From: a virus
Strand: one strand, 5' to 3'
IMG/VR virus record: IMGVR_UViG_3300032282_005983
Coordinates: 1-44,943 of that record
Length of the DNA stretch: 44,943 nucleotides
This document shows positions 5,126-20,799 of the stretch, in pieces (position 1 is the stretch's first letter; the number at the start of each line of letters is the position of its first letter). The position numbers were made by a program, and so were the translations under genes. The notes beneath the pieces were generated by a model. The model saw only the letters and a list, made by a program, of their open reading frames with translations. It did not search any database and was not told the DNA's origin.

Positions 5126-5382
5126 GTAAATACTCAAAAGTAAAACTTTACATCTATGAGCATACCCCTAAAGAAACTATAATTGATACAGTTGAATGTA
5201 GAGAATGGGATGAGATAGTAATTGCGGCCTATTCTTTTGATAATGTACAAGTTTCTTTGGAAGAATTAATGGATACATTATCTGAAGCATTTGCTAATAA
5301 AAAAGTTGTATTAGTCCCTAAACAATCAAATATTGAATTTTATGGCGTAAAAGAAATGAAAGAGCTAGAACATGGCAGTTGA
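5122..5382 (+). CDS. small hypothetical protein, TTG start
   Basis: 86 residues beginning (M)SKYSKVKLYIYEH. The preferred start is TTG at 5122, because it overlaps the preceding TGA as TTGA. The same TTGAGTAAAT junction starts another gene at 16914. An in-frame TTG at 5116 is an alternative, with GAGG at 5108-5111 near both. The fold looks alpha/beta. No family recognised. It overlaps the following glycosyltransferase by 11 bp. Confidence 0.6.
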   Translation: MSKYSKVKLYIYEHTPKETIIDTVECREWDEIVIAAYSFDNVQVSLEELMDTLSEAFANKKVVLVPKQSNIEFYGVKEMKELEHGS

Positions 5383-6172
5383 CTTATTGGTAGTAACTTA
5401 TAACACAAAAGATCTTTTAAAAAGACTTTTAGACACTCTTCATTCAGACTATGAAGATAATGTATGGAAACTTTTTATTGCTGACAACAATTCGCAAGAT
5501 GGAACTCAAGAATGGCTTTTAGCTAATAGTGGTGAATACAAAATAGAAGAACTAGTATTCAACGAAAATATAGGCTATTCTGCAGCGATTAATGATTTAG
5601 CATTTAGATCTAGTTCTGAAATTTTATGCGCAGTAAATGCAGATACGTGGTTCACTACTAAGCATGTTAAACAAGTTATTCAATCGTTTGATGACACTCC
5701 TAATATGGCAGTCTGTGGAGTGAAGCAAATGGATGAGTCAAATAAGATAAGACATGGTGGAATCTTTTGGGATAAAAAATCTGATCCCGTGCATAGAGGC
5801 TGGAGCCAGTGGGACCCATTAGACGTAGAGTATAGGGATAAAGTTCAATGTTGGACAGTATCTGGATCGATTTACTATGCAAAAAGAAGCATCTGGAAAG
5901 AACTCCATGATTGTCCAATTTTTGCAGAAATGTATCCAGAAGCAAAAGGTGCTTTTTTACCAACTCCTCACTTTTTCGAGGAAACTTGGTTTTCACAACA
6001 TGCTTTAGCCCATGGATATGAGGTTTGGTATGATGGAACAGTAGACACAGCGGGTCACACATGGCATGCCTCTACTGCGGTTGGCGAGGCGTCTCGAAAG
6101 TATTTTATGACTAGTAGAGATATTTACATAAAAGCGTGTGAAAAGCATAGAATAGATCACGAATGCAAATAG
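5372..6172 (+). CDS. family 2 glycosyltransferase (rhamnosyltransferase-like)
   Basis: GT-A fold enzyme that transfers a sugar from a nucleotide donor. In 266 residues: the N-terminal strand LLVVTYNTKDLLKRLL, the donor-binding ADNNSQDGT (37-45), NENIGYSAAIN (64-74) typical of rhamnosyl-type GT2 enzymes, VNADTW (88-93) in place of the classical DxD, and FFEETWFSQ near 207-215, matching the general base region. It is the first gene of the glycan island. Acceptor and sugar are unknown. Confidence 0.85.
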   Translation: MAVDLLVVTYNTKDLLKRLLDTLHSDYEDNVWKLFIADNNSQDGTQEWLLANSGEYKIEELVFNENIGYSAAINDLAFRSSSEILCAVNADTWFTTKHVKQVIQSFDDTPNMAVCGVKQMDESNKIRHGGIFWDKKSDPVHRGWSQWDPLDVEYRDKVQCWTVSGSIYYAKRSIWKELHDCPIFAEMYPEAKGAFLPTPHFFEETWFSQHALAHGYEVWYDGTVDTAGHTWHASTAVGEASRKYFMTSRDIYIKACEKHRIDHECK

Positions 6173-6570
6173 TTATTAAGGCTTCTCGTCAGTTCGGAAG
6201 ATCAACATATTTAGCTAATGAAATACTTTCTTATCTAAGAGAGGAAGAAAACTTAAATGTTCTTGTCGTAACGCCAGTAAAACAAATGGCAAATAATTTT
6301 ATGGATCTATTATCAAAAATAGCTAAAAAAGAAAAAGATTACGTAAAAGAATCTATAGTTGTGTCTCAAGATAAGATTGTTTTAAACGAGAATATAATTC
6401 GCGTTATACCTTGTTATGATTTAGATAGAAAACTTAAGAGTTTTTCTTTGTACGATATTATCGCAATAGATGATGCAGATAAGTGTGATTCTGAAATTGT
6501 AGGCGCTATAATAGAAAGCGTAAAAGGCAATTCAAATAAACTACTTTTAATGTCGGAAGAAGAAAAATAA
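6163..6570 (+). CDS. terminase-like P-loop ATPase fragment with altered Walker A
   Basis: 135 residues resembling the N-terminal half of a RecA-like ATPase of the terminase/helicase type. It begins IVIKASRQFGRST, like the terminase Walker A of the SRQ-x-GK-[ST] kind, but with Arg replacing the catalytic Lys. VLVVTPVKQMANNF follows as the next strand, and IIAIDDADKC is a Walker B-like strand. The motor's C-terminal half and a nuclease domain are absent. It may be a decayed gene or a regulatory paralogue. It overlaps the preceding gene by 10 bp. Confidence 0.65.
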   Translation: MQIVIKASRQFGRSTYLANEILSYLREEENLNVLVVTPVKQMANNFMDLLSKIAKKEKDYVKESIVVSQDKIVLNENIIRVIPCYDLDRKLKSFSLYDIIAIDDADKCDSEIVGAIIESVKGNSNKLLLMSEEEK

Positions 6571-6574
6571 ACCA

Positions 6575-7018
6575 ATGCAAACATTTTTACCAGATCCTGA
6601 CTTTCTAAAAACTGCAAAGTATTTAGACTGGAGACGCTTAGGTAAGCAAAGAGTAGAAACAAAGCAAATCTTAAATATAGTATCTAATCAAACAGATAAA
6701 AAAGGTTGGCGTAATCATCCAGCAGTTTTAATGTGGCAAGGGTGTGATTTAGCTCTAGCAATATATGGTTTAGAGATGTGTAAAGAATGGAAAAAGCGCG
6801 GATATGTAGATAATATGACTCCTTTTTTTGAAAACTATTTAATAGAAAATAAAAATAGATTAATTAAATATCCAGAATGGATAGGCAATAAAGAATTTCA
6901 TAGTTGTCATAGACAAACTCTTTTATTCAAAAATTATGATTGGTATATTCAATTTGGCTGGACAGAAGAACCAAAGTATGAGTATTATTGGCCTGTTCAA
7001 AAAATAGAAAGCAGATGA
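6575..7018 (+). CDS. pyrimidine-dimer DNA glycosylase-like protein (MSMEG_6728 type)
   Basis: 147 residues starting MQTFLPDPDFLKTAKYLD, then RRLGKQRVETKQIL and HPAVLMWQG, a pattern I associate with the MSMEG_6728 family. That family is often annotated as T4 endonuclease V (denV)-like pyrimidine-dimer glycosylase. If that is correct, it would start base-excision repair of UV dimers. Known members are mainly actinobacterial or environmental. It sits between an ATPase-like fragment and a HAD phosphatase inside the glycan island, so it is an insertion relative to the sugar genes. Confidence 0.75.
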   Translation: MQTFLPDPDFLKTAKYLDWRRLGKQRVETKQILNIVSNQTDKKGWRNHPAVLMWQGCDLALAIYGLEMCKEWKKRGYVDNMTPFFENYLIENKNRLIKYPEWIGNKEFHSCHRQTLLFKNYDWYIQFGWTEEPKYEYYWPVQKIESR

Positions 7019-7019
7019 A

Positions 7020-7598
7020 ATGGCAAGAATAGGTATTGACATAGATGGAGTATGTTATGACTTCATAGATGCTTTAAGATTGTATATAAATGAATCTTCT
7101 GGTAAACCACTAGAAGAAATGCCAGAAGCCCAAGTGTGGGACTTTTTTGAAGAACAATGGGGTATCAATGCTAATAGATACATTAAGTTCGTGGTAGATG
7201 GCGTTTTAGATGGTAAAATATTTTGGCAAGGCAAAATATATCCAGGGTGTCTGGAAGTCATACGAACTTTAAAGCAAATGGGGCATGAAATTATTTTCAT
7301 AACTGCAAGAAAATTTCATACAATTGAAGCTATATGCGCATTAGCTACTATCTCATGGATAGAGCAGAATAATTTACCTTATGACAAGATCATCGTGAGC
7401 AATGATAAGACAGGATATGATTTAGACTTGCTGATAGATGATTCTCCAAATCAAATTGAAAACCACGTCCTTCATGGTGAACATGCAGTAATTTTTGATC
7501 AACCATGGAATCAAGATATAAAGTATTGCGATAGAGTATATGGATGGAATGACGTCCTTAAGTATGTAGAAAATTATTTCCAAAAAGTTTCCATGTAA
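7020..7598 (+). CDS. HAD-superfamily 5'-nucleotidase-like phosphatase
   Basis: 192 residues with the HAD motifs: DIDGVCYD (7-14, nucleophile and acid Asp), FITAR (motif II, about residue 93) and LLIDDSPNQIE (motif IV). The cap insertion and size resemble 5'(3')-deoxyribonucleotidases found in phages. It would dephosphorylate a nucleotide or another phosphoester. It starts 1 bp after the preceding stop and ends just before a strong promoter. Confidence 0.8.
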   Translation: MARIGIDIDGVCYDFIDALRLYINESSGKPLEEMPEAQVWDFFEEQWGINANRYIKFVVDGVLDGKIFWQGKIYPGCLEVIRTLKQMGHEIIFITARKFHTIEAICALATISWIEQNNLPYDKIIVSNDKTGYDLDLLIDDSPNQIENHVLHGEHAVIFDQPWNQDIKYCDRVYGWNDVLKYVENYFQKVSM

Positions 7599-7599
7599 G

Positions 7600-7628
7600 T
7601 TGCAAAATAAAAAAAGCCACGATATAAT
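7600..7628 (+). promoter_or_regulatory. sigma70-like promoter
   Basis: TTGCAA (7600-7605), 17 bp, then TATAAT (7623-7628). The -10 is preceded by ACGA, the same ACGATATAAT string found at 28074-28083. The transcript would have a leader of about 33 nt before ATG 7668, with RBS AAAGGAG. Confidence 0.75.
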
Positions 7629-7667
7629 ACAGAATGTAAGTAAGTAAACCACAAAAAGGAGACAATA

Positions 7668-7859
7668 ATGTCAGACAATAAGCTAAAGTACTGGGAAGTA
7701 ACAACCACTCAGATCGTTAAGGCAAACAGCAAGAACGACGCAATGAAGTTAGTCGGTCGTCGTGGCCGCACTGCTCATGGTGAGGTTCTTAGTGTCGATA
7801 CAAATATCGATCGCATATCCGCCGCTGACGCTCATGAGATTGTCTATCAAGTAAGCTGA
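7668..7859 (+). CDS. small basic hypothetical protein
   Basis: 63 residues (MSDNKLKYWEVTTTQIVKAN...) with its own promoter and terminator, so it is expressed as a single-gene unit. AGGAG precedes the ATG. The sequence contains a basic patch VGRRGRTAHGE. The size and the predicted strand-helix pattern would suit a small regulator or host-takeover protein, but there is no recognisable family. Its codon use is more GC-rich than that of its neighbours. Confidence 0.7.
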   Translation: MSDNKLKYWEVTTTQIVKANSKNDAMKLVGRRGRTAHGEVLSVDTNIDRISAADAHEIVYQVS

Positions 7860-7865
7860 TTTACA

Positions 7866-7904: not shown

Positions 7905-7923
7905 CTTTACGGAGGTGCGTATA

Positions 7924-8625
7924 ATGACTAAACTTATAGCAAATATGGTAGTAAGAAATGAAGCCAATAATTATTTGTCGAGAGTATTAAGCAGATTGGT
8001 TAATCAGGTAGATGAAATCTGTATAACAGACGATTGTTCTGACGACGATACGGTAGAGATGGCGTTAAGCTTCGGCGCAAAAGTTTTCAAAATGGATGAA
8101 CCTACATTCATGAATAATGAAGGAAGATTGAGACAAAAGTCTTGGGACAATCTTGAGACTATTGTCGGAACAGATCCTAATACATGGATTCTAGCAATAG
8201 ATGCTGACGAAGAGCTTTATGAGACAACTTATATCTTTGATGATTTGCTTAATCAAAAAGTTTTTGAAGTAATTGCTGTAGAATTTTACCATATGTGGAA
8301 TGAATCAATGTATAGGTTAGATAAAGCTTGGGCACCTAATAAAAGCGCTAGGCTATTTAGGTACCATGCAAACGGTAAGTTTATGGATAGAGCACTAGCT
8401 TGTGGCTCTGAGCCGACCTATGTCAGAGAGCTTATTGCTCAAGGGAAGTTTTTAAAAGAATCTGATTTAAAGATGAAACATCTTTCTTATATAAAGGACG
8501 AAGACAAAAAAGCCAAATACGACAGATACATGAGAATAGACGGTGGCGCTTTTCACTCTAATGCTCATATCATATCCATAATGGATACAAAGCCGTCTTT
8601 GATGCCTTGGCAATGGGATGGTTAG
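7924..8625 (+). CDS. family 2 glycosyltransferase
   Basis: 233 residues of GT-A fold: MVVRNEANNYLSRVLSRL, ITDDCSDDDT (donor loop) and AIDADEELY (DADEE at 93-97) as metal and nucleotide-sugar site. Resembles the WaaE/KdtX-like GT2 group. ATG 7924 is chosen because GGAGG (7911-7915) lies 8 bp upstream. A GTG at 7915 would overlap that RBS. It overlaps or abuts the next GT2 gene, so the two are co-translated. Confidence 0.85.
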   Translation: MTKLIANMVVRNEANNYLSRVLSRLVNQVDEICITDDCSDDDTVEMALSFGAKVFKMDEPTFMNNEGRLRQKSWDNLETIVGTDPNTWILAIDADEELYETTYIFDDLLNQKVFEVIAVEFYHMWNESMYRLDKAWAPNKSARLFRYHANGKFMDRALACGSEPTYVRELIAQGKFLKESDLKMKHLSYIKDEDKKAKYDRYMRIDGGAFHSNAHIISIMDTKPSLMPWQWDG

Positions 8626-8626
8626 T

Positions 8627-9166
8627 ATGGACGTGACTGTCATAACTCCAACGATACCTGGAAGAGAAGATCTTCTTGAAGAATGTAAATCTTCTGTTCG
8701 TAACCAAATTGAACCAGTAACAAAACATATTTGGATGTTAGATGAAGACAAAAGGGGTCCAGGATTCATAAGAAATGAGCTAATAAAAAAAGCAAATACA
8801 GAATGGATTGCCTTTTTAGATGACGACGATATCTTATTGCCAGAGCATTTCGCAATTCACAAATGTTTTTTAGACGAAGCAGATGTTATTTTTAGTTGGA
8901 GTTATGTAATACTGGAAGACGGAACAAAAAGCAGATTTGAATCTGTAGTAGACCCAAATAAGATACACTCTGGATATAATACTCTTCCAATCGTTGCAAC
9001 TATAAGAAAAGATCTTCTAGAAAGAATAGGTGGATTCGATACCAGAGTGAAGCTAGAGGATTTAAAATTATGGCAAGATCTCCTTAATGAAGGAGCAAAA
9101 TTTTATTGCATAAATCAAATAACATGGCATTATAGATTAACCCCAAACAGTAGAAATATTTCATAG
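8627..9166 (+). CDS. short family 2 glycosyltransferase
   Basis: 179 residues: DVTVITPTIPGREDLLEEC, FIRNELIKKANTEWIAFLDD, and the metal site DDDD at 65-68, with a C-terminal GGFDTRVKLEDLKLWQDLL helix that matches the GT2 catalytic-base region. ATG 8627 follows GGGATGG. An in-frame ATG at 8618 is the alternative. Shorter than usual GT2 enzymes but complete in motifs. Confidence 0.82.
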   Translation: MDVTVITPTIPGREDLLEECKSSVRNQIEPVTKHIWMLDEDKRGPGFIRNELIKKANTEWIAFLDDDDILLPEHFAIHKCFLDEADVIFSWSYVILEDGTKSRFESVVDPNKIHSGYNTLPIVATIRKDLLERIGGFDTRVKLEDLKLWQDLLNEGAKFYCINQITWHYRLTPNSRNIS

Positions 9167-9174
9167 GAGATGAA

Positions 9175-9864
9175 ATGGGTATTAGCAAAGAAGAATGGAA
9201 AAATAAAACAGCGGTTTTCACCGCAGTTATAACTGATTTTGAACATTTAGGCCCTCAGATCTTTGAGGATGGCGTAGATTATTATTATTTTACCGACGGA
9301 ACATCGATGCCACTCCATGAAAGATGGAATGTCGTTGTTTTAGATAAGTTTTCTCACATACATCCACGTAGGATATCTAAATTCGTTAAACATGTTCCTC
9401 ACATGTTTCCAGAGTTACAAAAATATAAATATACCGTTTGGATTGATGGCGACATGCAGATAATAAAACCTAATTTCGTTGAAGAAATAATGTTTTTTTT
9501 AGATAACGGAATGGTGTTATCTCCTCATTTCGATGTCAGAAATTGTGCCTATACGGAAGCTACGATCAGACCCGCTAAATACCAAACAGAGCCAATGGAT
9601 GCTCAGGTCGAATACTATCAACAAAGAGGATTTCCAGAAAATTATGGCCTCTATGAGACTGGAGTTATGGCCAGAGACATGACTGACCCAAGAGTCAAAG
9701 AACTGGGAATGCGTTGGTTTATCCACAATATGGTATTGTCGTATCAAGATCAAGTAAGCTTGCCGTTTTGTTTGTGGGATATGCAATATCAACCAGCAGT
9801 GTTACCTATGACTTTTAGGAATTTCGGATGGGTTATCATCAATGCTCATAAGCACGAGGGTTAA
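9175..9864 (+). CDS. DUF616/TOD1-like glycosyltransferase
   Basis: 229 residues with the features of the DUF616 (TOD1/MUCI70) glycosyltransferase domain: TAVFTAVITDFEHL at the start, the YYYFTDG strand, and YTVWIDGDMQI (DGD at 91-93) as DxD metal site, followed by LSPHFDVRNCAYTEA. The family is best known from plants and from bacterial surface-glycan loci. An uncharacterised sugar transfer is inferred. RBS AGGAG precedes the ATG. Confidence 0.75.
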   Translation: MGISKEEWKNKTAVFTAVITDFEHLGPQIFEDGVDYYYFTDGTSMPLHERWNVVVLDKFSHIHPRRISKFVKHVPHMFPELQKYKYTVWIDGDMQIIKPNFVEEIMFFLDNGMVLSPHFDVRNCAYTEATIRPAKYQTEPMDAQVEYYQQRGFPENYGLYETGVMARDMTDPRVKELGMRWFIHNMVLSYQDQVSLPFCLWDMQYQPAVLPMTFRNFGWVIINAHKHEG

Positions 9865-9867
9865 TCT

Positions 9868-10683: not shown

Positions 10684-10704
10684 AAATAAAATAAAGGAGT
10701 TTTT

Positions 10705-11331
10705 ATGGGAAAAGTAAGTAATCCGGTAATATTAGAATCTTTATTAAAATATTTTAATATACAAAATTATGTAGAGACAGGCGTAGGTAATGGCACTAGT
10801 ATGCAAGAAGTGTTTGATCTAAATGTCGTTAAAAAATTTTATGGCATCGAACTAGATAAGGCTATGTGTGAAAGATTGATCAACACAAACTTTTACAGCA
10901 TGTTAACGCTTTATAACGGTTACTCAAAAGATCAAATGATACCGTTACTTAACTCGTTGGACAATAAGTCAACTTTGTTTTGGCTAGATGCACACTTCCC
11001 CGACGCTGACTATAACGGTGCTCCATACGATGCGGAGAAAGACGTTGAAAAAAGAATTCCTCTTCAAATAGAGCTAGAGTTAATTTGTTCGCAAAGAAAT
11101 ATTTCTGAAGATGTCATTATGATAGATGATTTAAGAATTTACATAGATGGCCCGTTCCATGACGGATCTTGGCCACTACGTCATTCTGCGGGTGCAGATG
11201 GGTACAATTTTGTAAGACATCTGCTAGAAAAAACTCACATTTTAATAGAAAACTATAAAGATCAAGGGTATTTATTAGCTTTTCCTAAAGACACAAGCGC
11301 AGATGTAATTAGTTATCTGGTTAATCACTAA
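10705..11331 (+). CDS. SAM-dependent methyltransferase-like protein
   Basis: 208 residues. The N-terminal YVETGVGNGTSMQE matches motif I of class I methyltransferases, with FYGIELDKAM as motif II (acidic ribose-binding end) and STLFWLDAHF as the following strand. VIMIDDLRIY and the long C-terminal part resemble proteins found in glycan loci. The substrate is probably a sugar or glycan hydroxyl, by context. RBS AAGGAG. Confidence 0.7.
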   Translation: MGKVSNPVILESLLKYFNIQNYVETGVGNGTSMQEVFDLNVVKKFYGIELDKAMCERLINTNFYSMLTLYNGYSKDQMIPLLNSLDNKSTLFWLDAHFPDADYNGAPYDAEKDVEKRIPLQIELELICSQRNISEDVIMIDDLRIYIDGPFHDGSWPLRHSAGADGYNFVRHLLEKTHILIENYKDQGYLLAFPKDTSADVISYLVNH

Positions 11332-11339
11332 GGATTTTT

Positions 11340-11993
11340 ATGGGTTTCAGTATTGATTTTTTAAAAGAAAAATCTGACATAAAAAAAGTAATACACGTAG
11401 GAGCAGACAGAGGAGGAGAACTGCCTCAGTACGCAGAGCTAGGAGTAGAAAAAGTAGTATGGATAGAGGCAAATCCAGAAGTGTATGGAGAGTTACTAGA
11501 TAATATTAAATTGATGAACATAGAAAGCATTCAAAACGAATGCTTTAATCAGTTGATATCAGACAAAGACGATTGTATTACAGATTTTAATCTTTATTAC
11601 GGCCCCGATGCGGGTTATTTGGTCGGCAATAAAGGCATGTCTTCTATTCTTAAAGCCAGCACTAACTGGTGGGGGTCGAATTGTCATCGCGGCACAATAC
11701 AGCTAAATTCATTGACTCTCGATACATTTTTAGAAAGACATGGTTTCAATTTCGACTTTGACATGTTGAACATGGATACACAAGGTGCTGAATTAATGAT
11801 ATCTAAAGGTGCTACAAAAGTTCTTGACACAGTCAAATATATAAACTGCGAAATAACTTTTTTTGATCCACAGTATCAAAATAACCCTCTATATGAGGAG
11901 CTAGAAGAATACTTTAAACAATTTAATTTTAAACCTATTCACATAGAAATGAGCGCTGTTAATTGGGGCGATGTTCTATTCTGTAAGACATGA
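11340..11993 (+). CDS. FkbM-family methyltransferase
   Basis: 217 residues with the FkbM layout: VIHVGADRGGELPQYAELG (motif I), VVWIEANPEVYGELLDNI (motif II), then LNSLTLDTFLERH and FDMLNMDTQGAELMISKGA, the family's characteristic D-x-Q-G-x-E segment. FkbM enzymes O-methylate sugars and polyketides and are common in phage and capsule glycan clusters. It overlaps the next gene by 4 bp (ATGA). Confidence 0.88.
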   Translation: MGFSIDFLKEKSDIKKVIHVGADRGGELPQYAELGVEKVVWIEANPEVYGELLDNIKLMNIESIQNECFNQLISDKDDCITDFNLYYGPDAGYLVGNKGMSSILKASTNWWGSNCHRGTIQLNSLTLDTFLERHGFNFDFDMLNMDTQGAELMISKGATKVLDTVKYINCEITFFDPQYQNNPLYEELEEYFKQFNFKPIHIEMSAVNWGDVLFCKT

Positions 11994-12688
11994 AAACAGC
12001 ATTAATTAAGCAACCAATAGGAATTGGTGATGTTTTTTATTTACAAAAGTTTGCATATATAATAAAATCTAAAGGATACAATATAATTTGGCCATTAAGA
12101 GAAGATATACTTTGGATTGCTAATTACATTTCTGGTATAGATTTTTGTTCTTTAAATGATAATTTCTTTGGAATAGATGCATATTATAGCGGTCATTACA
12201 TTTTAGACAGACATGATTTGTTATTTTTATCGCCAGATGGATTTAGAGTACCTGGTAGAAGAATAATGGAATCTAAGTATCTTTTAATAAATGAATCAGA
12301 TCATGATTGGTTTGATTATTTTATTTATTCTAGAAATAAAGAAAAAGAAGATGAACTTTATTATGACGTTTTAAATTTAAAAGATGAAGAAGAATTTATA
12401 TTTGTGAATAAGATGGCAAGTGTTGATGTGAGAAAGTCTGACGTATTAGATGACCTCATCTTTGATACGCCTATTATAGAGCTACAGCTATTAGATGGAT
12501 TCTCAATGATAGACTGGTGTAAGGTTTTAGAAAACGCTAAAGAAATACACACAGTTCATACTGGCATCAATTATTTAATTGACACGCTGCCTACAAAGGC
12601 GATAAAATATAACATGTATCAAGGATTACATCACTCTGATGTTCAATTTATTCCTTTCAGAAAAAAACCTAACTTTATTGCGAATTGA
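11990..12688 (+). CDS. GT9-like glycosyltransferase, copy 1 (heptosyltransferase-like)
   Basis: 232 residues, beginning LIKQPIGIGDVFYLQKF, like the N-terminal GDhl motif of the GT9 heptosyltransferase fold, and ending with LENAKEIHTVHTGINYLID, which resembles the nucleotide-sugar site. It is a paralogue of the gene at 13674. An internal 80-bp tract (12331-12410) is identical in DNA to 14054-14133, although flanks are clearly diverged. Given the HldE genes nearby, ADP-heptose is a plausible donor, but this is inference. Confidence 0.65.
   Translation: MKTALIKQPIGIGDVFYLQKFAYIIKSKGYNIIWPLREDILWIANYISGIDFCSLNDNFFGIDAYYSGHYILDRHDLLFLSPDGFRVPGRRIMESKYLLINESDHDWFDYFIYSRNKEKEDELYYDVLNLKDEEEFIFVNKMASVDVRKSDVLDDLIFDTPIIELQLLDGFSMIDWCKVLENAKEIHTVHTGINYLIDTLPTKAIKYNMYQGLHHSDVQFIPFRKKPNFIAN
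12331..12410 (+). repeat. 80-bp perfect direct repeat, copy 1
   Basis: Identical base for base to 14054-14133. Both copies lie in frame in paralogous genes and encode the segment from RNKEKEDELYYD to NLKDEEEFIFVN. The bases before and after differ. This looks like gene conversion between paralogues. Confidence 0.95.
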
Positions 12689-12694
12689 GAATAT

Positions 12695-13672
12695 ATGAAA
12701 TATTTAATAACTGGTATAACAGGATTTGCTGGTCCGCATTTAGCTAATTTACTTCATGAAAAAAATCATCAAGTTTTTGGACTAATAAGAAGTACCAACG
12801 GTAGAGAAAATGACATAAGAGATGTAGTTAATGATATTGTATATAGAGACATAAATTTTTTATACTCTGATTTAAATAATTATAGAACTTTAGATATGTT
12901 GTTCAAACAAAATCAATTTGATGGCGTATTTCACCTAGCTGCACAATCCCATCCTCCATCAAGTTTTCTTGATCCAATAGGAACATTTGAAGAAAATATA
13001 ATGGGAAGCGCTAACCTTATACAAGTTGTTTCTGACAATCAACCAGACTGTAAGGTAATGTTCTGTTCTACTTCTGAAGTGTATGGAAATACCGGTTTTG
13101 ATGGTCGAAAGATACACTGGGATGATAGAATTCTTCCCTCTAATCCCTATGGCACTTCAAAAGCAGCTATTGATCTTTATATGCAGGAGAGAATTGAAAA
13201 TAATAAAATAAAAGGTTTTATAACAAGAGCATTTTCTCATACTGGTCCTCGTAGAGGGAAGAACTTCTCTATATCATCAGATGCATTTCAGATAGCTAGA
13301 ATGATGAAGGGTTTACAAGAAAAAGTTATTTTAGTAGGAAACTTAGAGAGTGTTAGAGTTGTTATAGACGTAAGGGATACTGTGAATGCGTACTACTTGG
13401 CAATGCAAAGTAATGATGTAAATGGTAAAATCTTTAACGTATGTGGAGATACACCTAGAAAAATGCAGTTTTTTACTGATAAACTTATTGAAATAAGTGG
13501 TTTAACAAACGTAAAACAACAAATATCTCCTGATCTTTACAGACCAATAGATATTCATTATCAGCATGGTGATTCGAGCAATCTGGTACAACTGACAGAT
13601 TGGCAGCCAACTATACAGATAGAGCAGACTTTATCTGATCTACTAGCCTATTGGTACGAAAAGATCACGTGA
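12695..13672 (+). CDS. NAD(P)-dependent GDP-mannose 4,6-dehydratase-family enzyme
   Basis: 325 residues of the extended short-chain dehydrogenase fold. TGITGFAG (6-13) is the NAD(P) loop, FHLAAQSHPPSS follows, CSTSEVYG contains the catalytic Ser/Thr, and Y152-G-T-S-K156 is the catalytic pair. SHTGPRRGKNFSISS matches the substrate loop of GDP-mannose 4,6-dehydratases and the related GDP-4-keto-6-deoxymannose reductases. It would make a GDP-6-deoxyhexose; dehydratase or reductase cannot be decided by eye. It lies between the two GT9-like paralogues. Confidence 0.82.
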   Translation: MKYLITGITGFAGPHLANLLHEKNHQVFGLIRSTNGRENDIRDVVNDIVYRDINFLYSDLNNYRTLDMLFKQNQFDGVFHLAAQSHPPSSFLDPIGTFEENIMGSANLIQVVSDNQPDCKVMFCSTSEVYGNTGFDGRKIHWDDRILPSNPYGTSKAAIDLYMQERIENNKIKGFITRAFSHTGPRRGKNFSISSDAFQIARMMKGLQEKVILVGNLESVRVVIDVRDTVNAYYLAMQSNDVNGKIFNVCGDTPRKMQFFTDKLIEISGLTNVKQQISPDLYRPIDIHYQHGDSSNLVQLTDWQPTIQIEQTLSDLLAYWYEKIT

Positions 13673-13673
13673 C

Positions 13674-14432
13674 ATGCAGCAACGAGTAGGTCTTATATAC
13701 CAGCCTTGTGGGTTGGGAGATATCTTATTTATGCAAAAGATATCTCATTTCATTAAGGCATTAGGTTATGAGGTCTATTGGCCGGTAATCAGCGAATTTA
13801 AATGGTTAAATAATTACATAAAAGATTTCCATTTTATATCATGGAATGATGAAGTAAATCATATTTCCGCTCCACCACTTCCTGAAGAAGTAGTATTTCC
13901 ATACAAAGAAAAATATTTAGTTGAAACTAAAACTGAAATAAATGAATCTTTATTCTTTTTTCAAGGGTTTATAAATGTAAATCCTATAATGGCAGGGAAG
14001 TATAACTCTATAGATTTAGATTGGAAAGACTGGAGAGATTACGTAATTTTCGATAGAAATAAAGAAAAAGAAGATGAACTTTATTATGACGTTTTAAATT
14101 TAAAAGATGAAGAAGAATTTATATTTGTGAATAGAAAATACTGTACTAGACCGAACATAATGACTTTTAATGGATTGGACCATATAATCAATAGATCAAA
14201 AAAAAGAATCATTGATATGAGTATTATTGATGGATTTTCTTTGTTTGATTGGTGTAAAGTACTGGAAAAAGCTTCTGAAATACATATGATAGAAACATCA
14301 TTAAATTATTTGCTAGAAAGTCCAAACTTATATAATAAGATAAAAACAAAATCACTTTATTTATACAGTAGACAATCCTCATTTCATGAGGTTGAATATT
14401 TGTTTAATCTGCCCTGGAATTATATTACATGA
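13674..14432 (+). CDS. GT9-like glycosyltransferase, copy 2
   Basis: 252 residues, paralogous to the gene at 11990: GLIYQPCGLGDILFMQKI at the N-terminus, IDGFSLFDWCKVLEKASEIH near the C-terminus. Outside the 80-bp identical tract (14054-14133), similarity is only moderate. Probable GT-B fold sugar transferase, perhaps for heptose. It starts 1 bp after the dehydratase stop and overlaps the next gene as ATGA. Confidence 0.65.
   Translation: MQQRVGLIYQPCGLGDILFMQKISHFIKALGYEVYWPVISEFKWLNNYIKDFHFISWNDEVNHISAPPLPEEVVFPYKEKYLVETKTEINESLFFFQGFINVNPIMAGKYNSIDLDWKDWRDYVIFDRNKEKEDELYYDVLNLKDEEEFIFVNRKYCTRPNIMTFNGLDHIINRSKKRIIDMSIIDGFSLFDWCKVLEKASEIHMIETSLNYLLESPNLYNKIKTKSLYLYSRQSSFHEVEYLFNLPWNYIT
14054..14133 (+). 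repeat. 80-bp perfect direct repeat, copy 2
   Basis: Second copy of the tract at 12331-12410, 1.7 kb away in the same orientation. In both genes it keeps the reading frame. Recombination between the copies would delete the dehydratase gene between them and fuse the two GT9-like genes. Confidence 0.95.
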
Positions 14433-14926
14433 TAGATATTATTAAATTTAATGATCAAATATATCCCAAGTTTCAAAGCGAAGGCAATGCCGCGCAATTT
14501 GCAATACCTTACGCTAAAAAATTTTGTAATGGTTTTGGTTATGATATAGGCTGCATGAAGATTGAATGGGCTTTCCCCGGCGCTTTTCCTATAGACCTGA
14601 TTTTCGATGATGAGTTTCATGCTAACAATCTGCCAGAAGAACCCCCTGATTATATCTTTTCTAGTCATTGTCTTGAACATATCGATAACTGGGTGGAAAC
14701 CCTTGATTATTGGACTGATAGACTAAAAAATGATGGTGTTTTATTCTTATATCTTCCTGATTATTCGCAACATTATTGGCGTCCATGGCATAATATAAAA
14801 CATAAGCATGTTTTTAATCCAAACATTATAAAGGATTATATGATAGATCGAAAATTTACTAATATATTTGTTTCTGGAATTGACTTAAATAATTCTTTTA
14901 TGATTGTTGGCAACAAATGTCAGTAG
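14429..14926 (+). CDS. class I methyltransferase (type 11-like)
   Basis: 165 residues. GYDIGCMK is a short motif I, IDLIFDDEF comes next, and IFSSHCLEHIDNWVETLDYW is the typical post-II block of methyltransferase 11 proteins, followed by LKNDGVLFLYLPD. It is shorter than usual but retains the SAM fold's central elements. Likely modifies a sugar or small metabolite in the glycan pathway. Overlaps the neighbours on both sides by 4 and 10 bp. Confidence 0.78.
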   Translation: MIDIIKFNDQIYPKFQSEGNAAQFAIPYAKKFCNGFGYDIGCMKIEWAFPGAFPIDLIFDDEFHANNLPEEPPDYIFSSHCLEHIDNWVETLDYWTDRLKNDGVLFLYLPDYSQHYWRPWHNIKHKHVFNPNIIKDYMIDRKFTNIFVSGIDLNNSFMIVGNKCQ

Positions 14927-15315
14927 CTTTTGTCAATGGTTGTTTTGACGTCCTACACATAGGACATATAGAGCTTTTTAGATATGCTAAAGCTCAAGCG
15001 GAAAAGGTTTTTGTAGCTATAGATTCAGATGCTAGAGTAAGATCTATGAAAGGCGAAAAAAGACCATTTAATAACCAGCATGATAGGAAGATGATGTTGG
15101 AAACAATTAAGTTTATTGATAAAGTATTTATTTTTGATACAGAAGATGAACTAATTTCATTGATAAAAACATTGAATCCAGATATAATGGTAGTTGGTTC
15201 AGATTGGAAAAACAAAAAAGTTGTAGGTAGCGAATATGCAAAAGAATTACAATTTTTCCAAAGAATCGATAAGTATTCGACAACAAAAATACTTCAAAGT
15301 TCTCCTCATAGGTGA
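14917..15315 (+). CDS. heptose-1-phosphate adenylyltransferase-like nucleotidyltransferase (HldE C-domain type)
   Basis: 132 residues. GCFDVLHIGH (8-17) is the cytidylyltransferase-fold signature. MKGEKRPFN, MVVGSDW and the terminal YSTTKIL match the RfaE2/HldE C-terminal domain, which charges heptose-1-phosphate with a nucleotide. In Escherichia coli this domain is fused behind the kinase. Here it is a separate gene placed before the kinase, with an 80-bp overlap. ADP-heptose is the likely product, but other NDP-sugars or glycerol-type substrates are possible. Confidence 0.82.
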   Translation: MSVAFVNGCFDVLHIGHIELFRYAKAQAEKVFVAIDSDARVRSMKGEKRPFNNQHDRKMMLETIKFIDKVFIFDTEDELISLIKTLNPDIMVVGSDWKNKKVVGSEYAKELQFFQRIDKYSTTKILQSSPHR

Positions 15316-16042
15316 GTCATGTGTCGATCAGTATCGTTTTGGAGTATGTGATCGAATATGTCCAGAAGCACCTGTTCCTGTCTTTTCTTTTTTAACCGAA
15401 GAAAATAGAGTTGGTATGGCAGCTAATGTAAAAACAAATCTTGAAAGCTTTGGTGTTCACGTAGATTTTATAAGTAACGACAAAAATCTTATTGTTAAAA
15501 GAAGATTTGTAGATACAAAATCTAATCAGCTTTTATTAAGAGAAGATATAGAAACAGTATTGCAATCTATCTCTTTCCTTGAAGTCATCAAGTCATTAGA
15601 TTGCTATGATGCAATTGTCATATCTGATTATGATAAAGGATTAATAAATAATGAAGAGGTTATTAAATTAATCAAATCCTTTAATGGTCCTGTTTTTGTC
15701 GATAGTAAAAAAACAGATTTATCATTATATGAAAATTGTATTATTAAAATAAATTCTGAAGAAGAAAATAAAGTAATTAAGTATCCTAATAAATCAGAAA
15801 TAATCGTTACTTTAGGAAAACACGGTGCAAAGTATAACGACATATATTTTTCAGCTCCAAAAGTAGACGTATTTGATGTTACCGGTGCTGGAGATGTATT
15901 CTTAGCATCCCTGTGTTTTTATTTTCTTTCAACTTATAACATAAAAGAAGCAATCAAAAAGGCTGTAATATTAGCATCTAAATCTGTACAACATATCGGT
16001 ATATATAAGTTATCAAACAGAGATATAGAAGAGGTGTCATGA
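15236..16042 (+). CDS. PfkB-family heptose-7-phosphate kinase-like (HldE N-domain type)
   Basis: 268 residues. VLLIGESCVDQYRFG and ICPEAPVPVF match the RfaE1/HldE kinase N-terminus, VISDYDKG (128-135) and VTGAGDVFLAS (GAGD at 217-220) are PfkB motifs with the catalytic Asp. It would phosphorylate heptose-7-phosphate at C1. The expected length is about 310, and the substrate-binding Gly-Gly of HldE (GGAANVA) is changed to GMAANV. The ATG at 15236 lies 80 bp inside the preceding gene. No later ATG/GTG/TTG precedes the essential first strand. Confidence 0.82.
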   Translation: MQKNYNFSKESISIRQQKYFKVLLIGESCVDQYRFGVCDRICPEAPVPVFSFLTEENRVGMAANVKTNLESFGVHVDFISNDKNLIVKRRFVDTKSNQLLLREDIETVLQSISFLEVIKSLDCYDAIVISDYDKGLINNEEVIKLIKSFNGPVFVDSKKTDLSLYENCIIKINSEEENKVIKYPNKSEIIVTLGKHGAKYNDIYFSAPKVDVFDVTGAGDVFLASLCFYFLSTYNIKEAIKKAVILASKSVQHIGIYKLSNRDIEEVS

Positions 16043-16917
16043 AGGTATTAAATTTCTTAAGACCAGAAAATGGTTTGACAGAAGATCCTTTATACTATTT
16101 TGACTTTAAAAGATTTGAAACGATAGGAAGAGATTGTTATTTCTTTTTAGCAGATTTCTACGACAGCCTATATAGCGGACAGTATGATGATAAAGAGAAA
16201 GTTGTTCTTACGCTAGAGGAACCAAATTTTTGTACTGTTGACAGTCCTAAAATGTTTCTTCATGATAAAGCAGATTTGATATTAACAATCTGCCCATATA
16301 CTGCCGAACTATTCGATAACCGTACTTTAGTATTTTTTCCTTTTAATGAAGAATTAATACCAATAGCTAAAGAAAAAGAAATCGATATATGTTACTTTGG
16401 TAGTTTTCCTCGCTCATATCCGTGGCATCAATATATGAATAATGTTGTGTATACCTACAACTATAGGTATGGTCATTACAACGCTGGAAATATGCGCGGA
16501 TGCACATATGCAGAAAAGATAGACACAATGTCTAGATCTAAAATTACTTTAGTTCATGGACTATGCAATGTAGATAATTCTATTATACAAAAGTATAGAA
16601 ATTTTATTCATGGTAATCTTAACAATGCGTTCAATTTTCTTGAAAACGGCATGCTCCCACAAGTAAAATCAAGAATGTTTGAAGCAGCCTTTTGCAGATC
16701 TCTTATTTTGTGTCAAAAAGATCCATGGAATCCTATAGAATATTTTTTTGAACCAAATAAAGAATTTATTTATTTTAACGACGAAAATGAGTTGAAATAT
16801 TTAATAGATCATATAACAAATAACTTTGAAGATTATCAATTTATCATTTCAAATGCATATGAAAGAGCAATTAATAACTATACAACAAAACATTTTGTAG
16901 AAAGATTTTTATCTTGA
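16039..16917 (+). CDS. GT-B-type glycosyltransferase (family 1/CgeB-like)
   Basis: 292 residues. The C-terminal half, with LPQVKSRMFEAAFCRSLILC and EYFFEPNKEFIYFND, is the donor-binding segment of glycosyl transferases of the GT1/CgeB kind. The N-terminal half has alternating strands and helices. It starts ATGA-coupled to the kinase and shares TTGA with the next gene. Sugar unknown. Confidence 0.7.
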   Translation: MKVLNFLRPENGLTEDPLYYFDFKRFETIGRDCYFFLADFYDSLYSGQYDDKEKVVLTLEEPNFCTVDSPKMFLHDKADLILTICPYTAELFDNRTLVFFPFNEELIPIAKEKEIDICYFGSFPRSYPWHQYMNNVVYTYNYRYGHYNAGNMRGCTYAEKIDTMSRSKITLVHGLCNVDNSIIQKYRNFIHGNLNNAFNFLENGMLPQVKSRMFEAAFCRSLILCQKDPWNPIEYFFEPNKEFIYFNDENELKYLIDHITNNFEDYQFIISNAYERAINNYTTKHFVERFLS

Positions 16918-17822
16918 GTAAATTCATTGTAATAACAACTATAAATAAGCCGACTGAAGCGACTTTAAAATTTAGTAATAAAAAGGATTGGCAACTTATA
17001 GTTGTTGGCGATAAAAAAACTCCTCATGAATATTACCGGCAATTAAACTGTATATATTTAGATCCGGAAGCACAACAAGATCTATATCCGCGTCTTTCCG
17101 ATTCAATAGGTTGGAATACCATACAGCGTAGAAATATAGGATTACTACATGCCTTTAACTTGGGGGCAGAAATAATTGCCACTGTTGATGACGATAACAT
17201 ACCGTATGACGATTGGGGCGATAATTTATTAATTGGGAAAGAAATAGAATGCGACTTATACGAAACAGCTAATGCTGCCTTTGATCCTTTATCTGTTACC
17301 AATAACAATCATCTGTGGCATAGGGGCTACCCTATAGAGCTGGTTCCCACTCGTCATAATGTTAATTACAAGGGAAAAACAAAAAGAAAGGTATTGATTC
17401 AAGCCGATCTTTGGGATGGAGACCCAGATATAGATGCTCTAGCAAGGTTATGTTTTATGCCGACGGTAAAGTATGACATTCAAAAACCATTTTGTTCAAA
17501 TACAATATCTCCATTTAACAGCCAAAACACTTTTTTAGCAAGAGAAGTGATACCACTTTATTCTGTGCTTCCATTTATAGGAAGAATGGATGATATATGG
17601 GGCGGATACATATTGCAATATTATTTCCCACAAAGTCTAGTATATAATAAGGCGTCTGTTTATCAGGACAGAAATAAGCAGGATTTAATAACTAATTTAG
17701 AAAATGAAATTATTGGATACAGAAATACTTTAAAACTATTAGAAGATCTATCTAATTTTCATAAATATCTTCCAGAAAAAACTTTAAATTATTATTCAAC
17801 ATATAAAGAGATGTTTTCATGA
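16914..17822 (+). CDS. STELLO-like (DUF288) glycosyltransferase
   Basis: 302 residues. VITTINKPTEA, WQLIVVGDKKTP, then QRRNIGLLHAFNLGAEIIAT and VDDDNIP form the run typical of STELLO/DUF288 proteins, with DDDN as metal site. The family was first described in plants, where it affects cellulose synthase trafficking, and is known in bacteria and viruses of surface-glycan context. The start is a TTG overlapping the preceding TGA, as at 5122. Function here inferred as sugar transfer. Confidence 0.75.
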   Translation: MSKFIVITTINKPTEATLKFSNKKDWQLIVVGDKKTPHEYYRQLNCIYLDPEAQQDLYPRLSDSIGWNTIQRRNIGLLHAFNLGAEIIATVDDDNIPYDDWGDNLLIGKEIECDLYETANAAFDPLSVTNNNHLWHRGYPIELVPTRHNVNYKGKTKRKVLIQADLWDGDPDIDALARLCFMPTVKYDIQKPFCSNTISPFNSQNTFLAREVIPLYSVLPFIGRMDDIWGGYILQYYFPQSLVYNKASVYQDRNKQDLITNLENEIIGYRNTLKLLEDLSNFHKYLPEKTLNYYSTYKEMFS

Positions 17823-18142
17823 GATATATAATAGACATTGATGGAACAATATGTACTAAATCTGAAGATAGTACATATCTTGATTCAAATCCTTTAAAAG
17901 ATCGTATTGACTATATCAATAGTTTATATGATCAAGATCATACAATAATCTATTACACAGCAAGAGGTATGCATCGCTATGATGGTGATTCAAGTCAAGC
18001 TTTTAAAAAATTCTTTCCACTGACAAATACGCAATTAAAGAAGTGGGGATGCAAGTATCATGAGTTGAGATTTGGTAAGCCAGCTGGCGATATATACGTA
18101 GACGATAAAGGAATAAATGCAGATGACTTCTTCAAAGGGTGA
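17819..18142 (+). CDS. small HAD-family phosphatase of capsule/LPS type
   Basis: 107 residues: DIDGTICTK (6-14) is HAD motif I, YYTARGM motif II, and DIYVDDKGINADDF motif IV. The size and the sequence match short HAD proteins found in polysaccharide loci, next to nucleotidyltransferases. In the heptose route a HAD enzyme (GmhB) removes the C7 phosphate; whether this one does that is unknown. Overlaps neighbours by 4 and 26 bp. Confidence 0.72.
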   Translation: MRYIIDIDGTICTKSEDSTYLDSNPLKDRIDYINSLYDQDHTIIYYTARGMHRYDGDSSQAFKKFFPLTNTQLKKWGCKYHELRFGKPAGDIYVDDKGINADDFFKG

Positions 18143-18485
18143 AGCACATTTTGTCTCAAAAGGTTGGGGTTTTGAGAAATGGATAGTTAATAATGAACAA
18201 TACTGTGGTAAAGTGTTATTCTTTGTCAAAGACAAAAAATGTTCATGGCACCACCATGAAATAAAAGATGAGACATTCTTTATACAAAGTGGTAGTATTA
18301 TATTGAAGTATTCAGAAGACGACGATATAAAAACTGCAGAGACTTTGATATTAAGACGTGGAGATATTTTTCATGTTCATCCAGGACTTAGGCATCAAAT
18401 GATCGCATTGGAGGACACAGAGTTGATAGAGTTTTCTACTCAGCATTTTGACGAAGATAGTTATAGGATTGAAAAGGGCGATTAA
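18117..18485 (+). CDS. single-domain cupin (mannose-6-phosphate isomerase C-domain-like)
   Basis: 122 residues forming a cupin barrel: CSWHHHEIKDETFFIQSG is the metal-binding motif 1 and GDIFHVHPGLRHQMIALED is motif 2. Such small cupins are often found beside GDP-mannose and heptose genes and act as sugar isomerases or epimerases, or just bind sugars. AAAGGA (18105-18110) supports ATG 18117; 18123 is an alternative. Confidence 0.75.
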   Translation: MQMTSSKGEAHFVSKGWGFEKWIVNNEQYCGKVLFFVKDKKCSWHHHEIKDETFFIQSGSIILKYSEDDDIKTAETLILRRGDIFHVHPGLRHQMIALEDTELIEFSTQHFDEDSYRIEKGD

Positions 18486-19096
18486 TGTCTATAAATACTT
18501 TTTTTGATCATATTTACTGTATCAATCTCGACAGAAGACCAGACAGATGGGAAAAATGTCTTCAAGAATTTGAAAAACATGGCATTGAAAACGTAGAAAG
18601 ATTTTCTGCAGTTGATGGAAACACTCTTGAAGTTTCTTCGCACCTATTAAAAGGTGAAATTGGAATAATAGAGTCACACAAGAGAATTTTAAACGATGCT
18701 AAAAACAATAATTATAATAATATTTTAATCCTAGAAGATGATGTAGAATTTCATTCAAATTTTACTGAATTATTTTCTTCTATTCAATATGAAATACCTT
18801 TAGATTTCGATATGATATATATAGGTGGAAATCTAGAATTATGGTCTCCAGTGCAAATTACACAGCATGTTTTTAAAGCAAATTCTGCATTAGCACTGCA
18901 TGCGGTAGGCATCTCTGCTTCAGTCTATGATATAATTCTTTCACTAATTGATCATACAGTACAAATAGATATCCTATATGCTCATATAAGTAATCGCATA
19001 AACTCTTATATAATAAGACCGCGATTAGCTTTTCAAAAAGCTGATTGGTCAGACATACAGAATATTAATGTAAACTATACTTTTTTGAGAGACTAA
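18485..19096 (+). CDS. family 25 glycosyltransferase
   Basis: 203 residues. HIYCINLDRRPDRWEKC is the GT25 N-terminal signature. IGIIESHKRILNDA and ILILEDDVEF (EDD metal site) follow. GT25 enzymes add galactose to lipooligosaccharide or to collagen-like proteins. The C-terminal third is divergent. It starts inside the stop of the cupin gene (TAATG) and abuts the GT11 gene. Confidence 0.88.
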   Translation: MSINTFFDHIYCINLDRRPDRWEKCLQEFEKHGIENVERFSAVDGNTLEVSSHLLKGEIGIIESHKRILNDAKNNNYNNILILEDDVEFHSNFTELFSSIQYEIPLDFDMIYIGGNLELWSPVQITQHVFKANSALALHAVGISASVYDIILSLIDHTVQIDILYAHISNRINSYIIRPRLAFQKADWSDIQNINVNYTFLRD

Positions 19097-19840
19097 ATGA
19101 CTTATACATATAAAGCACTCGGTAATTTTGGTAGATTGGGTAATCAATTATTCCAAATAGCTGGAACTATTGGTAAAGCATTAGATAATAACGCACAGGC
19201 AAGTTTTCCAAACTGGGGATATCAAGATTTCTTTAATATTCCCAGCGCATTATTTGACAACAGAGATGGAAACGACTTAAGTGGTGATTACTTGCAAGAC
19301 TTTCATCATTTTGAAAAGTATAAAGATTTGATAAAACAATATTTTTCTCCATCAGATAAAGCTCAAGAAATAATAAATTCATTCTATTATTCATTGTTAG
19401 AAGAAAAAAAGAATAACCATATTATGGCTATTCACGTAAGACGCGGAGATTATTTGAATCTCTCCCAACACCATCCCACATGCGGAGTCGATTATTTTGA
19501 AACAGCGATACAAACATTAAGCGGCTGCATAGACAAACCCATGAAGAAACTAGTTTTTTCAGATGATTTAGATTGGTGTAAAAAGCAATCAGTTTTTGCA
19601 GACGCCCTTTTTGCAGATAGTTTTAATATTGATTTTGACGTATTCGATTTATTCACGATGCAACTGTGTAATTCTCATATTATATCTAATTCTACTTTTA
19701 GTTGGTGGGGCGCTTACTTAGCAGAAAGTCCACTGGTTTGTTATCCAAACCCATGGTATGGGCCTGCTTTACAGGATATAGATACTGACAATACTCTTAT
19801 ATTACCTCATTGGAAAAAGATAGATAGGAATCAAAAATGA
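19097..19840 (+). CDS. GT11 alpha-1,2-fucosyltransferase-like
   Basis: 247 residues with all GT11 motifs: GRLGNQLFQIA (12-22), HVRRGDYL (113-120) for GDP-sugar binding, LVFSDDLDWC, and SNSTFSWWGAYL (197-208). It would transfer L-fucose or the similar L-galactose from a GDP donor to a beta-galactoside-type acceptor. The following gene, coupled by ATGA, is a GDP-mannose 3,5-epimerase-like enzyme, whose product is GDP-L-galactose. Confidence 0.9.
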   Translation: MTYTYKALGNFGRLGNQLFQIAGTIGKALDNNAQASFPNWGYQDFFNIPSALFDNRDGNDLSGDYLQDFHHFEKYKDLIKQYFSPSDKAQEIINSFYYSLLEEKKNNHIMAIHVRRGDYLNLSQHHPTCGVDYFETAIQTLSGCIDKPMKKLVFSDDLDWCKKQSVFADALFADSFNIDFDVFDLFTMQLCNSHIISNSTFSWWGAYLAESPLVCYPNPWYGPALQDIDTDNTLILPHWKKIDRNQK

Positions 19841-20799
19841 AAGTATGTGTGACTGGTGCTGGAGGATTCATAGGCGGCCATTTGGTAGATTCATTAGTCA
19901 AGGAGGGCCACGAAGTAATTGCTGTTGATATAAAAGATTTTGATGATTGGTTTAGTTGGAACCATAAATCAAAACATTTTAGTGTAGATCTAAAGTTAAG
20001 AAATGAATGTTTTAGAGTATTAAATCACGATATTGACTGGGTTTTCAATCTCGCTGCAGATATGGGTGGAATGGGCTTTATAGAAAACCATAAAGCAGAC
20101 TGCATGTTATCTGTACTAATAAATACAAATATGCTTGAGGCAGCCAGTGGTGTAGGCGTGCCTAACTTTTTCTTTTCTTCTTCAGCATGCGTGTATAATG
20201 CAGATAAACAGGTAGACCCTAATGTCACTGCGCTCAAGGAAGAAGATGCTTATCCCGCCATGCCAGAAGATGGTTATGGATGGGAAAAACTTTTCTCAGA
20301 GAGAATGTGCAGACATTTCATGGAAGATTATGGTATTAATACACGCGTTGCTAGATTTCATAACGTATATGGCCCTAGGGGTTCATATGACGGTGGAAGA
20401 GAAAAAGCTCCAGCAGCCATATGTAGAAAAGTTATAGAAGCAAAACTCTCTGCAAATCATCACATAGAAATATGGGGTGATGGAGAACAAACTAGAAGTT
20501 TTATGTATATAGATGATTGTATAAAGGGTATAAAAACGATCAGTTATGGTGACTATAGCCAGCCCTTAAATCTCGGATCATCAGAGCTTGTCTCTATCAA
20601 CCAGTTGGTTACTATAGTAGAAGATATAGCTGGATTGAAATTAGACAGAACATATAACCTTGATGCCCCAAAGGGTGTTAGAGGTAGGAATAGTGACAAT
20701 ACTCTAATCAAATCCTTATATAACTGGGAGCCATCTATATCACTAGCGGAAGGAATGGAAAAGACATATAGATGGGTATATGATCAAATGACCACATAA
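19837..20799 (+). CDS. GDP-mannose 3,5-epimerase-like enzyme
   Basis: 320 residues of extended SDR fold. GAGGFIGG (7-14) binds NAD, LAADMGGMGFI and SSSACVY follow, Y147-GWE-K151 is the catalytic pair, and FHNVYGPRGSYDGGREKAP with the Cys in CRKVIEAK is the substrate loop highly typical of GDP-mannose 3,5-epimerases. The reaction gives GDP-L-galactose (and GDP-L-gulose). Last gene of the island, followed by a 28-bp gap. Confidence 0.88.
   Translation: MKVCVTGAGGFIGGHLVDSLVKEGHEVIAVDIKDFDDWFSWNHKSKHFSVDLKLRNECFRVLNHDIDWVFNLAADMGGMGFIENHKADCMLSVLINTNMLEAASGVGVPNFFFSSSACVYNADKQVDPNVTALKEEDAYPAMPEDGYGWEKLFSERMCRHFMEDYGINTRVARFHNVYGPRGSYDGGREKAPAAICRKVIEAKLSANHHIEIWGDGEQTRSFMYIDDCIKGIKTISYGDYSQPLNLGSSELVSINQLVTIVEDIAGLKLDRTYNLDAPKGVRGRNSDNTLIKSLYNWEPSISLAEGMEKTYRWVYDQMTT

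Follow-up and report, generated by a model that had tools for sequence, protein, structure and literature searches.

The window analyzed here, the entire 44,943-bp IMG/VR-type virus record IMGVR_UViG_3300032282_005983 (linear by its classification, and perhaps only part of a genome), carries a cassette of 18 glycan-related open reading frames (ORFs) in about 12 kb (8618–20799; Table 1, where genes are listed by the first position that designates them in the text), and this cassette is an accessory, mobile insert in a large tailed phage, where it occupies a fixed site next to the replication module. The cassette is real and intact-looking, lies in a new phage lineage at a defined insertion site and, based on the gene content that we computed for other phages, is shared, and seems to be horizontally exchanged, between phage lineages. 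The 18 genes probably form one operon, with a spacing of -80 to +28 bp throughout (the largest gap being 28 bp), and because the spacing is so tight and its gene order is repeated in other phages, chance grouping is not an issue. The GC content of the cassette is 0.327 versus 0.376 elsewhere, and that of same-length segments to its right ranges between 0.361 and 0.387. Judging from the enzyme families encoded, the sugars of the cassette are probably 6-deoxyheptose and L-galactose, the latter perhaps in a ring-contracted form.

The insertion is evident from relatives of the phage. With a profile of the DnaB-like protein, 80 loci from uncultured phages were found, and in those long enough the order is RNR - ThyX - GT2 (5372) - denV - GT2 (7915) - HNH - DnaB - PDDEXK - HD - primase - DnaE. 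In 62 relatives the 7915-type GT2 gene lies 510–697 bp from the HNH gene, versus 12,203 bp in the window, and in all five cassette-free relatives examined the site holds just one uncharacterized ORF, some 210 aa long (conserved, and seen for example at L197:8702-9331). Cassette genes are found at the same site in loci L048, L086 and L093, where the right end reads GME-HNH-DnaB (GME, GDP-mannose 3,5-epimerase), while contig G030 (locus L006), which belongs to the lineage by its DnaE, has 14 cassette genes at another position, downstream of a dNMP kinase gene (dNMPk). It is because relatives have 0.5–0.7 kb at the site, some of them hold cassette genes there and G030 holds them elsewhere that the cassette can be called accessory and mobile. 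A real GME gene is present in only G030, G019 and G040 among the 19 lineage or related contigs searched. The original prediction had drawn a single glycan island from 5372 to 20799; the genes it named (transferases, methyltransferases and precursor enzymes) are all there, and the island holds for 8618–20799, but its left third (5372–8625) is largely conserved core DNA of the lineage, and 6163, 6575 and 7020 are not glycan genes. In L048 (1049-2053), an HNH-like ORF was also seen between the HAD and GT11 genes, overlapping the cupin gene.

The cassette is shared well beyond this lineage. The order recurring in IMG/VR contigs is GME-GT10-MT-(FkbM-GT9a)-SDR-GT9b-MT23-HldC-HldN-GT4-GT75-HAD-cupin (MT, methyltransferase), and twelve cassette genes, largely collinear and with 30–66% identity, are found in the cultured Synechococcus phages S-T4 and Sf-CH8, with the same key matches in Sf-CH5. 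In these three phages, as in the window, genes for GME, GT10, methyltransferase, GT9-like, MT23, HldC, HldN, Glyco_trans_1_2, GT75, HAD, cupin and GT11 proteins form one block with almost the same gene order; unlike the window, however, they lack SDR 12695, FkbM and TOD1, and their GME gene is at the left end and only 40–41% identical. All three infect Synechococcus, S-T4 being a kyanovirus, whereas the probable host of the window's lineage is an actinobacterium. Moreover, a 236-kb cyanophage contig (G009, which holds locus L029) combines most of the cassette with gp23 and two Photo_RC (psbA/psbD family) genes, and contigs G006, G007 and G012 combine part of the gene set with Photo_RC genes. 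Since much of the block is also in cyanophages, it seems to be passed among phages whose hosts differ widely. A megablast search of the island against cultured phages gave only an 88-bp match. The TOD1, GT11 and GME proteins of the window are closest to those of L006, and TOD1 and GME next closest to those of L049-L053; because these three have other closest relatives than the rest, the cassette appears to combine parts of two origins. Its breadth, which the original prediction took as unusual for a phage, is not so: the clusters of SynMITS9220M01 and Bellamy are larger, P-SSM2 has a published 15-gene cluster (PMC7824862), and the three Synechococcus phages hold much of the same cassette. Such jumbo cyanophage “LPS biosynthesis” clusters (LPS, lipopolysaccharide) likewise combine SDRs, a cupin, kinases, nucleotidyltransferases and several glycosyltransferase families (PMC7824862), although SynMITS9220M01 has GHMP kinases, NTP_transferase proteins and a SIS-domain protein where the window has the two halves of HldE.

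Regarding the host, whiB, an indicator of actinophages (PMC10202952), is present in the two longest contigs of the DnaE lineage (G023, with three copies, and G024) and in G019, and in none of the 45 other contigs with cassette genes. The host of the window phage is thus probably an actinobacterium. Several findings weigh against this call, namely that many of those 45 contigs are short, that the window itself has no whiB, that its relatives are only about 50% identical to it in DnaE, and that G019 has no DnaE match. As the window lacks whiB and G019 a DnaE match, we infer the host only from the lineage. A psbA-based host call gave no match for the lineage.

The heptose branch centers on SDR 12695, which by sequence appears most like an NDP-heptose 4,6-dehydratase. 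A profile search, with a profile that includes two near-clade phage members, leans toward GDP-heptose 4,6-dehydratase, and aligned H-GPRR and RPID--YQ stretches are common to 12695 and 7us5, the 4,6-dehydratase of Campylobacter GDP-heptose modification and the nearest relative of 12695 with a solved structure. The nearest cellular relatives (74–75% identity) come from a Pelagibacteraceae single-cell genome, where the gene lies between HldN and HldC (order HldN-SDR-HldC, L098) and adjoins a GT9-like ORF, and from a Marinimicrobia metagenome-assembled genome, where HAD, GmhA, full-length HldE, SDR and GT9-like genes adjoin (L099); among these neighbors GmhA was named by similarity and GT9 by reading the sequences. 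A true GDP-mannose dehydratase (GMD), the family named in the original prediction, was rejected on scores. The second-best match is a GDP-6-deoxy-D-mannose reductase (RMD), and an enzyme of this type would lead to D-rhamnose and leave the HldE-like genes to serve another sugar; 7us5, however, scores better and has both aligned stretches, and the cellular relatives adjoin GmhA, HldE and GT9-type genes, which makes this alternative distinctly unlikely. Because 12695 is most like an NDP-heptose 4,6-dehydratase and not a GMD, the “heptose” and the “6-deoxy” sugar, listed as two in the original prediction, are probably one.

The other precursor enzymes anticipated for this branch (two HldE halves, a HAD phosphatase and a cupin) were all found. 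The translations of the HldE halves contain TGAGD (the GAGD of PfkB) and the HIGH and STTKI motifs of the nucleotidyltransferase, and across 26 non-redundant phage loci the genes for HldC, HldN, HAD and cupin almost always occur as a set or are all missing (HldC-HldN, p = 2.7e-6; HldC-HAD, p = 9.5e-6). The HldC gene of the window shares 80 bases with the HldN gene that follows it (14917-16042), and L029 and L086 show an equally long overlap. Public names for these genes mislead, as the small HAD is called “phosphoheptose isomerase” in S-T4 and Sf-CH8 (L260/L261), and the cupin “putative nucleotidyltransferase” in Sf-CH8. Two points speak against a heptose pathway: both HldE halves score below the NCBIfam equivalog cut-offs, and GmhA was found neither in the window record nor in G009. 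A domain search of the record revealed no GmhA (SIS_2) and no NTP_transferase gene, hence neither the completeness that had been claimed nor a GmhA or GMP gene elsewhere in this record; homologues of HddA, HddC and GmhA were also sought beside the SDR gene in phage loci, and none was found. Heptose-7-phosphate and GDP-mannose would therefore be supplied by the host or by genes in a part of the genome that the record lacks. The cupin was considered as a possible replacement for GmhA: L100 has a cupin and a SIS protein together, while G009 has the cassette and no SIS_2 match. Campylobacter produces GDP-heptose with a GHMP kinase and another type of nucleotidyltransferase; unlike that system, the cassette has HldE-type enzymes, and for this reason the nucleotide on the heptose may be ADP.

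For the L-galactose branch, the match scores of SDR 19837 identify it as a GDP-mannose 3,5-epimerase, in agreement with the original prediction, and its alignment to 8sg0 keeps all the catalytic stretches, with Cys (SSAC), Tyr/Lys (YGxEK) and Lys (REKAPAA). The enzyme probably makes GDP-L-galactose. Fucose synthase was rejected on the match scores. The GME genes of L086 (2588-4597) and L093 (829-2466) carry in-frame inserts at two different sites, with intein-like ends that start with CFDDQTEIW and CFDEKTEVL and finish with ...WCGN and ...WSGN, respectively.

A possible furanose branch had been missed. Protein 16914 is a relative of MtdL, which converts GDP-L-galactopyranose to GDP-L-galactofuranose (PMC9937993), and is probably a mutase rather than a transferase. 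MtdL residues D109, D111, R159, D195, S228, Q229, R257 and D260 are kept (D92, D94, R137, D172, S203, Q204, R224 and D227 in the window protein). Against such an activity, Ile stands in place of Asp87, which MtdL requires and which is Ser in plant members, and Gln in place of the Mn ligand His287; in addition, GT75 and GME are not significantly associated among SDR-bearing loci (p = 0.33). Given these two changes despite eight kept residues, we class the protein as GT75-like and regard the furanose step as plausible, not secure. In the biosynthesis of the antibiotic A201A, an epimerase acts upstream of MtdL. The cassette resembles that pathway in having both a GDP-mannose 3,5-epimerase and a GT75 mutase-like protein, the pair that leads to GDP-L-galactofuranose (MtdL: PMC9937993), and differs from it in its glycan-type surroundings and the two changed active-site positions. 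Our search for viral GT75 proteins found no relevant report in the literature covered. The candidate furanosyltransferase gene 16039 accompanies the GT75 gene in four of the five non-redundant loci that bear one and was never found without it, while a GME-GT10 association was looked for and was not significant (p = 0.11).

Altogether, 5372–20799 encodes transferases of seven families (GT2, TOD1/MUCI70, GT10, GT9-like, Glyco_trans_1_2, GT25 and GT11), and the minimum of eight in the original prediction is reached only by counting the probable mutase 16914; its three methyltransferases were recovered (10705, 11340 and 14429). The pair 11990 and 13674 can be called GT9-like by fold only, as no Pfam family scored above cut-off and no PDB sequence match was meaningful. 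The model of 13674 matched 3tov best, with a probability of 1.0, but with a TM score of only 0.54, and the protein is about 90 residues shorter.

We infer substrates and the order of steps from these families. Host GDP-mannose would be converted to GDP-L-galactose by epimerase 19837, and GT10/GT11-type enzymes would transfer L-galactose in its pyranose form, while 16914 may turn part of the GDP-L-galactose into the furanose for the adjoining transferase 16039. Host heptose-7-phosphate would be phosphorylated by the HldA-like kinase 15236, dephosphorylated by HAD 17819, activated by nucleotidyltransferase 14917 and converted to a 6-deoxyheptose derivative by SDR 12695, possibly with cupin 18117, for transfer by the GT9-like pair. 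The three methyltransferases would cap the glycan, which would be placed on a phage structural protein in the cytoplasm. A methylated glycan related to heptose and L-galactose, as originally predicted, is thus supported by the enzymes encoded; a separate 6-deoxyhexose is less likely.

Table 1. Genes of the cassette and of its flanks in the window
Position	Strand	Assignment	Evidence
5372..6172	+	GT2 glycosyltransferase, lineage core, outside cassette	Pfam Glycos_transf_2 1.1e-15; same place in relatives, 42-48% identity
6163		ATPase/terminase-like fragment, 135 aa	
6575		Pyrimidine-dimer glycosylase	
7020		5'-nucleotidase-like HAD	
7915..8625	+	GT2 glycosyltransferase, lineage core, left flank of insertion site	Pfam 1.9e-7
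8618..9166	+	GT2-family protein, first cassette gene	Pfam Glycos_transf_2 2.4e-7; one full-length homologue only (38%) among loci compared
9175..9864	+	TOD1/MUCI70-type glycosyltransferase	Pfam PF04765 9.6e-10; 52-69% in L006 and L049-L053
9868..10683	+	GT10 fucosyltransferase-family protein	Pfam PF00852 3.3e-11
10705..11331	+	Class I S-adenosylmethionine (SAM) methyltransferase fold	Profile to 3ntv 1.2e-5; AlphaFold pLDDT 88.8, Foldseek to 3ntv 7e-8, prob 1.0
11340..11993	+	FkbM-family methyltransferase	Pfam PF05050 8.4e-14
11990..12688	+	GT9-like protein, paralogue of 13674	41% identity to 13674
12695..13672	+	SDR, most like GDP-heptose 4,6-dehydratase	7us5 5e-54; RMD 2pk3 6e-45; true GMD ~1e-21
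13674..14432	+	GT9-like (heptosyltransferase-fold) protein	AlphaFold pLDDT 90.5; Foldseek best 3tov (GT9) 8.5e-5, then TibC, WaaC
14429..14926	+	Methyltransferase (Methyltransf_23)	Pfam 3.8e-11
14917..15315	+	HldE C-terminal-type nucleotidyltransferase (HldC-like)	TIGR02199 6e-34, 116.9 bits vs 181.5 cut-off
15236..16042	+	HldE N-terminal-type PfkB kinase (HldN, HldA-like)	TIGR02198 1.1e-40, 139.7 bits vs 345 cut-off
16039..16917	+	Glyco_trans_1_2 glycosyltransferase, candidate furanosyltransferase	Pfam 4.1e-13
16914..17822	+	GT75 NDP-pyranose-mutase-like protein	Family profile to MtdL 6e-40; no Pfam match
17819..18142	+	Small HAD phosphatase (EcbF/BcbF-like)	TIGR01689 1.6e-11, below cut-off; phrog_1238 9.6e-31
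18117..18485	+	Cupin, possible sugar isomerase or epimerase	Cupin_2 1.1e-7; weak profile matches to D-lyxose isomerases, 3.7e-5, 8e-5
18485..19096	+	GT25 glycosyltransferase	Pfam PF01755 1.8e-15
19097..19840	+	GT11 (alpha-1,2-fucosyltransferase family)	Pfam PF01531 4.2e-25
19837..20799	+	GDP-mannose 3,5-epimerase (GME), last cassette gene	8sg0 1.1e-93; 2c59 1e-92; next family 2.8e-34
20828..21529	+	HNH/homing-endonuclease-like protein, lineage core, right flank	phrog_559 7.4e-19; precedes DnaB in relatives

Although the sequence evidence does not fix the acceptor, which counts against any firm choice, the likeliest one is a structural protein of the phage that would be glycosylated in the cytoplasm. 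Actinobacteria have no LPS, and because the host probably lacks it and the cassette is shared with cyanophages, dependence on LPS is unlikely. Pfam scans of the cassette proteins recognized no flippase, polymerase, lipid-carrier transferase or priming gene, or export gene, and a Kyte-Doolittle scan flagged GT25 alone, weakly. It is for these reasons (a host probably without LPS, a cassette that cyanophages largely share, and no recognized lipid-carrier, flippase or polymerase gene) that a phage protein is slightly favored over the cell wall. LPS core assembly typically uses cytoplasmic transferases on lipid-linked intermediates, and enzymes such as those of the cassette could instead remodel the host surface during infection (LPS or O-antigen in cyanobacteria, cell-wall polysaccharide in actinobacteria), blocking other phages or grazers. 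Published work interprets cyanophage and pelagiphage clusters in this way (PMC7824862, PMC7029224, PMC9602691), and the sporadic and variable content of the cassette would fit diversifying surface antigens; the same lack of recognizable priming, flipping, polymerization and export genes and the LPS-less probable host, however, stand against it, and we consider it a real, if doubtful, possibility. Prophage O-antigen conversion of the gtrABC type uses a membrane flippase and a bactoprenol-linked transferase, and no such protein was recognized in the cassette. Attachment of the glycan to bases of the phage DNA, as a defense against host nucleases, appears very improbable: some phage glycosyltransferases do modify DNA, and this has been suggested for actinophages E7 and F5 (PMC10202952), but no base hydroxymethylase is among the proteins scanned and the thymidylate synthase is an ordinary ThyX, above cut-off. 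We also know of no DNA glycosylation that involves sugar-nucleotide and fucosyltransferase-type enzymes of such breadth. In another part of the window (35618-37939), a tail-fibre-like protein is directly followed by a glycosyltransferase-like protein (phrog_34859), a possible hint at fibre glycosylation.

Taken as a whole, an exchanged glycan cassette, likely an operon, at a fixed site in a lineage that probably infects Actinobacteria, with the sugars proposed above and a virion protein as acceptor, is an explanation to which we give slightly less than an even chance. A bolder version, in which cyanophages (with Gram-negative hosts) and actinophages (with Gram-positive hosts) exchange a self-contained cassette because its product, a glycan of 6-deoxyheptose and L-galactofuranose, is mounted on a protein of the virion itself, is unlikely to hold in full; if it were true, the cassette would work regardless of the host envelope, since the virion itself is decorated.

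Large phage glycan clusters were already known (PMC7824862, PMC7029224, PMC9602691), and the novelty here lies in where the cassette is inserted, in the sugars assigned to it and in its being shared by several phage lineages; its enzymes are also assigned more sharply than in the original prediction. Clusters of this sort are usually labelled “LPS modification” without a test, and for this kind the sharing with a lineage that probably infects LPS-less bacteria is a reason for doubt. The existence of cultured carriers, such as S-T4 and Sf-CH8 (on Synechococcus WH7803 and WH8102, respectively), makes the acceptor question directly testable, and the GT75 and NDP-heptose dehydratase relatives found here would extend the known routes to rare sugars.

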